64,000 nucleotides of DNA from Halobaculum marinum. Lineage in GTDB: Archaea > Halobacteriota > Halobacteria > Halobacteriales > Haloferacaceae. The stretch lies in contig NZ_CP119989.1 in NCBI RefSeq assembly GCF_029338555.1, positions 1,426,001 to 1,490,000 of the forward strand. The letters run 5' to 3'. The position numbers and the translations under genes are program-made. Positions within the stretch are counted from its first letter, which is position 1. The number at the start of each line of letters is the position of its first letter. The notes beneath the pieces were generated by a model. It worked only from the letters and a program-made list of their open reading frames with translations. It searched no databases and was not told where the DNA came from. This document shows positions 25,748 to 27,623 of this stretch, piece after piece.

Positions 25748-26671
25748 ATGAACGACACACGCGTGCTCGTGACTGGGGGGGCGGGGTTCATCGGGTCGAA
25801 CCTCGCGAACACGCTCGCCGAGGCCGGAAACGACGTCCTCGCGCTGGACAACGGCTACCTCGGGACTGCAGAGAATCTCGCCGACGACGTGGAGTACGTC
25901 GAGGCGGACGTGTTGGACGACGACCTGCCGACCGACGTGGACGTGGTGTTCCACCTCGCGGCGCTGTCCTCGCGGCAGATGCTCGAAGAGAACCCGCGGC
26001 AGGGCGCCCGCGTCAACATCGAGGGGTTCGTCAACGTCGTCGAACAGGCCCACGCCGACGGCTGTGACACGGTGGTGTACGCGTCCACCTCGTCCATCTA
26101 CGGGAGTCAGACCGACCCGTGTCCCGAGGACATGGCAGTGGAGGCGTCGACGGGGTACGACGCCTCGATGATGGGTCGAGAGCGCTACGCCGAGTACTAC
26201 AATGACTTCTACGACGACCTGACGCTCGCCGGGATGCGCTTCTTCTCGGTGTACCAGGGGTACGGCGGCAACGAGGAGCACAAAGGCGAGTACGCCAACA
26301 CCGTCTCGCAGTTCGCCGCTCAGATCGCAGACGGCGAGGCGCCCGTGCTGTGGAGCGACGGCTCGCAGACGCGCGACTTCACCCACGTCACGGACATCGT
26401 CCAGGGGCTGATCCTCGCGGCCGAGCACGAGTTGGCCGGCGTGTACAACCTCGGCACCGGCGAGAGCTACTCGTTCAACGAGATGGTCGACATGATCAAC
26501 GAGGTGCTCGGCACCGACGTCGAACCGGAGTACGAACCGGTCCCCATCGACAACTACGTGTTCCACACGAAGGCCGACGCCTCCAAGTTCAAGACGGCCA
26601 CCGGCTGGGAGCCCACGGTCGAGTTCGCAGACGGCGTGCGCGAGGTGTGTGCGCCGTACCTCGACGACTGA
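25748..26671 (+). CDS. NAD-dependent epimerase/dehydratase, atypical SDR
   Basis: A 307-residue extended SDR. VLVTGGAGFIGSNLA at 6-20 binds NAD, HLAALSS at 69-75 and YASTSSIYG at 111-119 match sugar-nucleotide epimerases, and GVYNLGTGESYSFNEM sits near the C terminus. Such enzymes act on UDP- or dTDP-sugars for glycans. The catalytic YxxxK is YDASM here: Tyr137 is present but Met141 replaces the near-invariant Lys. The reading ATG ATG GGT confirms no lysine in the next codons. It may be a modified enzyme or non-catalytic. It diverges from an HTH gene and is followed 49 bases later by arginase. Confidence 0.85.
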   Translation: MNDTRVLVTGGAGFIGSNLANTLAEAGNDVLALDNGYLGTAENLADDVEYVEADVLDDDLPTDVDVVFHLAALSSRQMLEENPRQGARVNIEGFVNVVEQAHADGCDTVVYASTSSIYGSQTDPCPEDMAVEASTGYDASMMGRERYAEYYNDFYDDLTLAGMRFFSVYQGYGGNEEHKGEYANTVSQFAAQIADGEAPVLWSDGSQTRDFTHVTDIVQGLILAAEHELAGVYNLGTGESYSFNEMVDMINEVLGTDVEPEYEPVPIDNYVFHTKADASKFKTATGWEPTVEFADGVREVCAPYLDD

Positions 26672-26720: not shown

Positions 26721-27623
26721 ATGACCGTCCGCATCATCGGTGTCCCCACCGACTACGGGCAGGACCGACGTGGCGTGGACATGGGGCCGTCGGCCATCCG
26801 CTACGGCGGGTTGGCCGAGGCGCTGGCGTCCGCCGGGGTCGAGGCCGTCGACGACGGCGACCTCGCGGTGCCGCGCGCAGAAGAGCGCGACCCGGACTCC
26901 CGACAGCCCAGCGAGGGCAACGCCAAGTTCCTCCGCGAGACCGAGGAGGTGACGACGGCGCTCGCCGACCGCGTCGCCGACGCCGTCGCGGCCGACGAGA
27001 CGCCGCTCGTGCTCGGCGGGGACCACTCCGTCGCCATCGGCTCGCTCAAAGGGAGCGCCCGCGACGCCGAGATTGGCGCCGTCTGGTTCGACGCCCACGG
27101 CGACTACAACACGCCGACCACCTCGCCGTCGGGGAACGTCCACGGGATGCCGCTGGCGGCGGCGCTCGGCTACGACGACTGGGCGGGCGTCGAGTGGGCG
27201 AACGCGCCGGGACTTCGCGAGGAGAACGTCGCGTACGTCGGCTTGCGCGCGCTCGACGACACCGAGCGAGCCGCGATCCGCGACTCCGAGATGACGGCGT
27301 ACACGATGTCCGACATCGACGAGCGCGGCATCACCGACGTCGTCGGAGCCGCCCTGTCTGTCGCCGCCGACGGCGTCGACGGCGTCCACGTCAGCCTCGA
27401 CATGGACTGGCTCGACCCGGGGATCGCTCCCGGCGTCGGGACGCCCGTCCGCGGCGGCGTCACCTACCGCGAGGCCCACCACGCGATGGAGTTGGTCGCC
27501 GACGCCGACGCCGTCCGGTCGATGGAGGTCGTCGAGGTGAACCCCGTGCTCGACGAGTCCAACGAGACGGCGTCGCTGGCGACGGAACTGGCCGCCAGCG
27601 CGTTCGGCAAGCGGATCCTCTGA
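26721..27623 (+). CDS. rocF: Arginase
   Basis: A 300-residue ureohydrolase. The N-terminal RRGVDMGPSAIRYGG is the arginase signature; the manganese ligands are His102 (GGDHS), Asp124/His126/Asp128 (DAHGD) and Asp227/Asp229 (SLDMDWLDPG). It should cleave arginine to ornithine and urea, feeding arginine catabolism. Length and the GVDMGPSAIR motif favour arginase over agmatinase or formimidoylglutamase, but substrate tests would settle it. ATG 26721 is favoured over 26649, whose added residues are basic and overlap the previous gene. The following 202 bases before gyrA show nothing. Confidence 0.88.
   Translation: MTVRIIGVPTDYGQDRRGVDMGPSAIRYGGLAEALASAGVEAVDDGDLAVPRAEERDPDSRQPSEGNAKFLRETEEVTTALADRVADAVAADETPLVLGGDHSVAIGSLKGSARDAEIGAVWFDAHGDYNTPTTSPSGNVHGMPLAAALGYDDWAGVEWANAPGLREENVAYVGLRALDDTERAAIRDSEMTAYTMSDIDERGITDVVGAALSVAADGVDGVHVSLDMDWLDPGIAPGVGTPVRGGVTYREAHHAMELVADADAVRSMEVVEVNPVLDESNETASLATELAASAFGKRIL

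Follow-up and report, generated by a model that had tools for sequence, protein, structure and literature searches.

Background

NmrA and HSCARG, which have the SDR fold, serve as sensors or scaffolds without carrying out any chemistry, and in pseudoenzymes of this type the catalytic tyrosine has been lost together with the lysine. Among sugar-nucleotide epimerases, K153M and K153A mutants of GalE were reportedly described by Swanson and Frey in about 1993, and papers on a two-base and a one-base mechanism of HldD (RfaD, the ADP-glyceromanno-heptose 6-epimerase) are said to have been published by Morrison and Tanner in 2007 and by Kowatz in 2010. Lys178 of HldD can act as a base and has reportedly been proposed as one in the active site.

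The lysine of classical SDRs reduces the pKa of the tyrosine and is often part of a proton relay (PMC5039031). The same source describes SimC7, a functional polyketide ketoreductase that carries Ser-Ile-His and for which substrate-assisted catalysis has been proposed (PMC5039031). SimC7 is an extended SDR working without the canonical Tyr-Lys pair, so that the lysine does not define the extended SDRs at the level of the fold. Data from eugenol synthase, in which the Lys132Ala and Lys132Gln variants have 0% activity with cofactor binding little affected (PMC1991597), and from E. coli GalE, in which mutagenesis indicates that Lys153 is catalytically important (PMC6668579), argue against an easy loss of this residue. 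A literature search in a limited collection found no paper on methionine in place of the YxxxK lysine, which does not imply that the case is absent from print.

An HldD-like SDR with methionine in place of the catalytic lysine

The window, that is the whole stretch of 64,000 nucleotides of the Halobaculum marinum genome analysed here, carries at positions 25748..26671 of the forward strand a CDS that translates into 307 residues followed by a stop, the frame being open with no internal stop. Its product belongs to the extended SDR fold superfamily, as indicated by a match to Pfam PF01370 (154.8 bits for a cut-off of 20.9), by a structure match to 4zrn_A (see below) and by the motif TGGAGFIG; the motifs D34, YASTSSIYG, ERYAEYY and DGSQTRDF were also located. 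The codons TAC GAC GCC TCG ATG at 26156-26170 correspond to Y137-D-A-S-M141. A preliminary description had presented the gene as an epimerase-like SDR with YDASM for YxxxK, an intact frame and all remaining SDR landmarks; translation and PF01370 confirm the former, and the motifs located and the open frame bear out the latter.

When aligned with HldD and GalE of E. coli, both taken from the K-12 record, Tyr137 (26156..26158) falls opposite HldD Y140 and GalE Y149, Thr114 (26087..26089), the Ser/Thr position within YASTSSIYG, opposite HldD Ser116 and GalE Ser124, and Met141 (26168..26170) opposite the catalytic lysines HldD K144 and GalE K153. The window protein therefore has the catalytic tyrosine of canonical Ser/Thr-Tyr-Lys SDR enzymes but not their catalytic lysine, the triad being Thr-Tyr-Met. 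The core of the Rossmann glycine motif (G10-G16; 25775..25795) is presumably involved in NAD binding, as is usual in the family.

The best NCBIfam model for this protein is that of HldD, TIGR02197, with a score of 162.7 bits that lies far below the equivalog cut-off of 274.6. Overall identity with E. coli HldD is 30%, and Lys178 in the GHKG of HldD is matched by K179 of the window SDR, in which His178-Lys179 (26279..26284) form an HKG motif corresponding to His177-Lys178 of HldD. In a profile search of the genome, which is 98.9% complete, neither GmhA nor HldE was matched above its cut-off, the best matches below threshold being to TIGR02198 (42.4 bits, cut-off 345) and TIGR00441 (21.1 bits, cut-off 209.45). 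This argues against a true heptose epimerase, and the window SDR is therefore treated as an HldD-like protein and not as a heptose enzyme. The GalE equivalog TIGR01179 gives 117.6 bits, below its cut-off of 262.3, and the Ser-Tyr-Lys set of that group is missing. GalE and the two nearest relatives encoded in the same genome (L002 and L003) have a C-terminal RxGD, while the window SDR has an HldD-like PxP..Y region instead.

The AlphaFold2 model of the window SDR has a mean pLDDT of 91.3 and a pTM of 0.90, values close to those of the model of L038, a relative from Halomarina halobia with lysine at this position (pLDDT 92.4, pTM 0.91), and it is weakest at residues 172-175, directly before the HKG motif. 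Structure searches, including Foldseek, gave UDP-sugar 4-epimerases as best solved matches, with a fold shared over the whole chain by GalE-type enzymes such as TM0509, WbpP and Mth375; the match to the UDP-glucose 4-epimerase 4zrn_A has a Z of 38.1 and an rmsd of 2.1 over 298 aligned positions. Met141 lies within a helix of the model (136-154) whose start adjoins the catalytic tyrosine. On its sequence, the window SDR represents the Met form of an extended SDR family of haloarchaea that is related to HldD and GalE.

Distribution of the Met form in haloarchaea

Family members were collected by a scan of named genomes, which gave 69 loci, and by a class-wide search of 391 genomes. In the fetched loci, rows near the query have Met in column 141 and those of the following tier have Lys. 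When ATG was demanded at codon 141 of a degenerate pattern, 64 places matched in 62 of the 391 class genomes, distributed over 19 of 86 genera, and the reversed control pattern had no match in any of the 391. The 62 are separate genomes, one per species, and two of them (G142 and G074) carry two Met genes each. Among the matches listed for the family pattern, codon 141 is ATG, AAG or AAA only.

The 192 extracted proteins were reduced to 138 distinct full-length members, matches below 50% identity (L071 among them) not being considered and L031, L061, three partial or broken copies (L070, L073 and L074) and the second, short match of L037 being left out. Codon 141 in these members is ATG (64), AAG (53) or AAA (21), and the motif YDASM (60), YEASM (4) or YEASK (74); since AAG is common in the Lys rows, the change from Lys to Met is possible by a single base, AAG to ATG. 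All of the rows read that are at least 75% identical to the query have Met, and Lys rows are about 63-74% identical to it; these bands overlap, as Met rows extend down to 69%, and to 58% for one separate row (L168, see below). The close homologues thus have no lysine that would point to a local error, and the conservation of Met141 across haloarchaeal homologues, which the preliminary description had proposed to check, is borne out in 64 of 138 distinct members and 62 of 391 genomes. Within a known superfamily, a hallmark catalytic residue has really been lost here, and the loss is conserved. A search of viral contigs with the window SDR as query, sensitive to close relatives only, found no relative.

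Several copies of the family are damaged, one being split over two frames (L031), one interrupted by a stop (L061) and two in pieces (L073 and L074). Broken or partial copies occur in Halolamina, Halorubrum and Halonotius and hint at copy turnover.

That gene decay or a base-calling error explains Met141 is extremely improbable. Damaged copies such as these four would be in keeping with decay, but the 64 Met places occur in 62 genomes, with one main clade and a dN/dS of 0.22 (see below). The 62 Met genomes, the close rows that have Met only and the clade rule out a sequencing error or local mutation.

Conserved and altered positions

The columns of 63 Met rows (L168 excluded) were compared with those of 74 Lys rows. 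G10, G13, G16, Asp34, Asn90, Arg164 and Arg209 are invariant in the Met rows, the three glycines being so in the Lys rows as well. Tyr137 is found in 63/63 Met rows and is equally invariant in the 74 Lys rows, and position 114 is Thr in 62/63 Met rows and Ser in the remaining one. H178 and K179 are present in all 138 rows, whichever the form, with G180 in 133, and E-x-H-K is common to both forms of the family. The nearest relatives in the genome, L002 and L003, lack the lysine of the HKG motif and keep that of YxxxK.

The columns that best separate the two sets include L79, D138, M141, F154, S187 and W202. The Met form has L79, M141, F154, S187 and W202 whereas the Lys form, which has the same Tyr, Thr and HK and is about 63-74% identical to the window SDR, has mostly H79, K141, H154, A187 and F/Y202. 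In the window SDR, Leu79 (25982..25984) stands where 72 of the 74 Lys rows have His, Phe154 (26207..26209), at the end of the model helix 136-154, where 67 have His, and Trp202 (26351..26353) where 70 have Phe or Tyr, all on the forward strand. Columns 263, 264 and 269 were dropped as diagnostic positions because they fall in an indel region of the alignment. Besides the lysine, the Met form has lost His79 and His154, both usual in the Lys form.

At the 95% level, the 63 Met rows have not gained any fixed Lys, Arg or His that the Lys set lacks; R76 is fixed in the Met rows but already occurs in 31 of the 74 Lys rows. A compensating basic residue elsewhere was thus discarded, and with no new basic residue in the Met form the charge of the lysine is not visibly taken over in the sequence. 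Of the 138 distinct rows, 58 entered structure alignment A1 and 48 structure alignment A2.

Origin of the Met form

In a first tree of 97 rows, 44 Met rows were grouped on one branch (support 98/85). A second tree was built from 106 of the 138 family rows, less than 93% identical to each other, and two outgroup rows, with the 12 diagnostic columns masked; the YEASM rows as well as L001, L170 and L188 were kept by choice. In this tree, one clade (100/98) unites 50 Met rows; it is nested in a grade of Lys rows, contains no Lys row itself and has as its neighbour a group of 21 Lys rows, most of them from Halorubrum, that form their own clade (99/89). The stem of the Met clade has a length of 0.14 per column with the 12 columns masked. 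The change from Lys to Met took place on this stem, which gives a single origin for the main clade. The tree includes part of the 62 Met genomes, one of which, G116, falls outside the main clade.

The G116 sequence (L168, 3935-4840) has Met141 and is 58% identical to the query, with a basal position and a long branch. Its background is that of the Lys form, with H79 and H154 and without L79, F154, S187 and W202, and it represents either a second, independent change to Met or a fast-evolving copy. A concerted switch of the active site (L79, M141, F154, S187, W202) was considered and set aside: it corresponds to one event on one stem that bears many other changes, and L168 lacks the four companion changes, so that epistasis is not claimed.

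Within a subclade composed of L167, L169, L170 and L187, three members keep Glu138 (YEASM) with Met141, Leu79 and Trp202. This is consistent with Met141 having arisen before Asp138, a reversal being also possible. The same subclade has STSS(I/F)YD and a rearranged loop after the catalytic Thr, in place of STSSIYGS.

Median pairwise dN/dS values, computed for pairs with dS of 0.15-1.2, are 0.22 in the Met set (1785 pairs) and 0.24 in the Lys set (2481 pairs).

Genomic context

In the window, the SDR gene is preceded by a divergent winged-HTH (wHTH) gene (HrcA_DNA-bdg, PF03444; 25047..25580, reverse strand) and followed, 49 bases downstream, by an arginase gene (TIGR01229, 279.5 bits for a cut-off of 227.6; 26721..27623, forward strand). 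Two long opposite-strand ORFs come after the arginase, and we take them to be gyrA and gyrB. A pyridine nucleotide-disulphide oxidoreductase (PF07992; 23623-24867 in the window) is found beyond the wHTH gene in many loci, in either orientation.

The slot between wHTH and arginase genes holds the Lys form in some genomes (for example L032, L038, L043 and L053) and the Met form in others, so that the place taken elsewhere by the Lys form is occupied by the Met form. The wHTH or the arginase was present within the fetched locus for 63 of the 138 proteins (37 Met, 26 Lys), another 64 being in loci of more than 4 kb with neither gene and 11 in loci too short to tell. Eight of 24 YDASM proteins outside this slot lie near a gene cluster with a GT4 glycosyltransferase representative, and a second GT4 cluster is present in seven Met loci.

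A link between the divergent HTH gene and the SDR, which the preliminary description had suggested, appears weak. The wHTH gene occurs without the SDR as well: 98 of 99 family genomes contain a match to it, and among the 30 best wHTH loci, for which 3.5 kb were fetched, the SDR is found in 23 (8 Met, 15 Lys) and none was found in seven. In six of these seven, wHTH and arginase are still neighbours. Within the slot it is thus the SDR that varies, and the idea of a dedicated regulator is unsupported. In L210, L229, L231, L232, L233 and L237, with wHTH and arginase adjacent within the 3.5 kb, the SDR slot looks empty.

Of the 62 Met genomes, 51 gave no Lys-type match to the family pattern and the other 11 gave at least one, a count obtained by comparing two tables of exact-pattern matches by hand, in which a diverged copy would be missed. 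The nearest relatives of the window SDR in its own genome are 38-39% identical to it. That the Met form is mostly found without a Lys-type match argues against a silent subunit of a heterodimer with the Lys form, and an obligate partnership with a Lys-type paralogue is unsupported. Faced with YDASM, the preliminary description had offered a different mechanism or a catalytically silent protein; this was the right pair of options, Met141 being real and conserved, but the variant in which a silent protein is paired with a Lys-type paralogue is less well supported.

Possible function of the Met form

The Met form is probably still an enzyme. The explanation that we favour, which in our estimate has an even chance of being right, is that it descends by a Lys-to-Met change from an HldD-like sugar-nucleotide epimerase and may remain active by means of Tyr137 and K179. 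It would still bind NAD and a nucleotide sugar, the latter perhaps one used for surface glycans, and would oxidise and then re-reduce the sugar. Tyr137 would serve as the acid/base in this scheme, and the role of a second ionisable group close to the sugar would fall to K179 instead of K141. Without K141, the pKa of Tyr137 would be higher and one contact with the nicotinamide ribose would be lost, so that a slower or one-way reaction is expected; alternatively, the substrate or the bound cofactor might supply the contribution of the lysine. Because Thr, Tyr and K179 are kept, and in view of the published cases of lysine loss and of SimC7, an enzyme that is active through a modified proton path seems most likely, followed by a non-catalytic binder and then by a changed reaction. 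In favour of the first are the fixed Met141 and its single main clade, the slot shared with the Lys form, the Met genomes that mostly give no Lys-type match, the similar dN/dS of the two forms, the kept Tyr137, Thr114, H178 and K179, the epimerase fold and the GT4 neighbours of eight proteins outside the slot. Against it stand the lack of a newly fixed basic residue, the loss of His79 and His154, the effects of lysine loss in GalE and eugenol synthase, and the low model confidence just ahead of the HKG motif.

As a non-catalytic binder, the Met form would bind NAD(H) and perhaps a nucleotide sugar without doing any chemistry, and might act as a redox or sugar-nucleotide sensor or as a scaffold, a possibility that we regard as the main rival but as rather unlikely. 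It would agree with the loss of the catalytic lysine and of His79 and His154, with the presence of the NAD-motif and GSQTRD residues, and with eugenol synthase, which loses its activity along with the lysine while cofactor binding hardly changes (PMC1991597). In a pure binder, however, one would expect drift at least at the tyrosine, and the Met rows keep Tyr (63/63) and Thr/Ser (63/63), the HldD-type Lys being kept in 138/138 rows. The invariant Tyr137 also sets the Met form apart from NmrA and HSCARG. Moreover, it sits in the slot of the Lys form, mostly without a Lys-type pattern match, and the divergent HTH gene is not tied to the SDR.

Somewhat more doubtful still is a change of reaction, by which the Met form would no longer epimerise but carry out on a sugar nucleotide a half reaction (such as oxidation, reduction or dehydration) for which the lysine need not lower the pKa of the tyrosine, or rely on substrate-assisted proton transfer of the SimC7 kind, an option that partly overlaps with the explanation favoured here. 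The replacements H79L, H154F, F/Y202W and A187S on the Met stem, together with a rearranged C-terminal loop, could reflect such a change, but the stem bears many ordinary changes, so that those occurring jointly may be unconnected, and the separate Met row L168 retains H79 and H154. SimC7 does work without the Tyr-Lys pair, but differs from the window SDR, which keeps its tyrosine, in that the tyrosine is lost too (Ser-Ile-His) and the substrate is a phenolic polyketide (PMC5039031).

Returning to the active-enzyme explanation, the Met form may, tentatively and with less confidence than for the descent proposed above, be seen as a long-conserved extended SDR lineage that would perform nucleotide-sugar chemistry with Thr-Tyr and an HldD-type lysine, K179, the YxxxK lysine being gone. 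If so, the latter would be dispensable given a second lysine in the active site, and the Lys form would have been replaced by the Met form in its slot. It is taught that the tyrosine of SDRs has a fixed partner in the YxxxK lysine, and here a natural change from Lys to Met is kept in 62 of 391 genomes. Lys-type relatives in the same slot of other species are ready controls, and the Met/Lys pair makes the role of the lysine and its possible replacements directly testable. The case also cautions against calling such SDRs dead on the motif alone.
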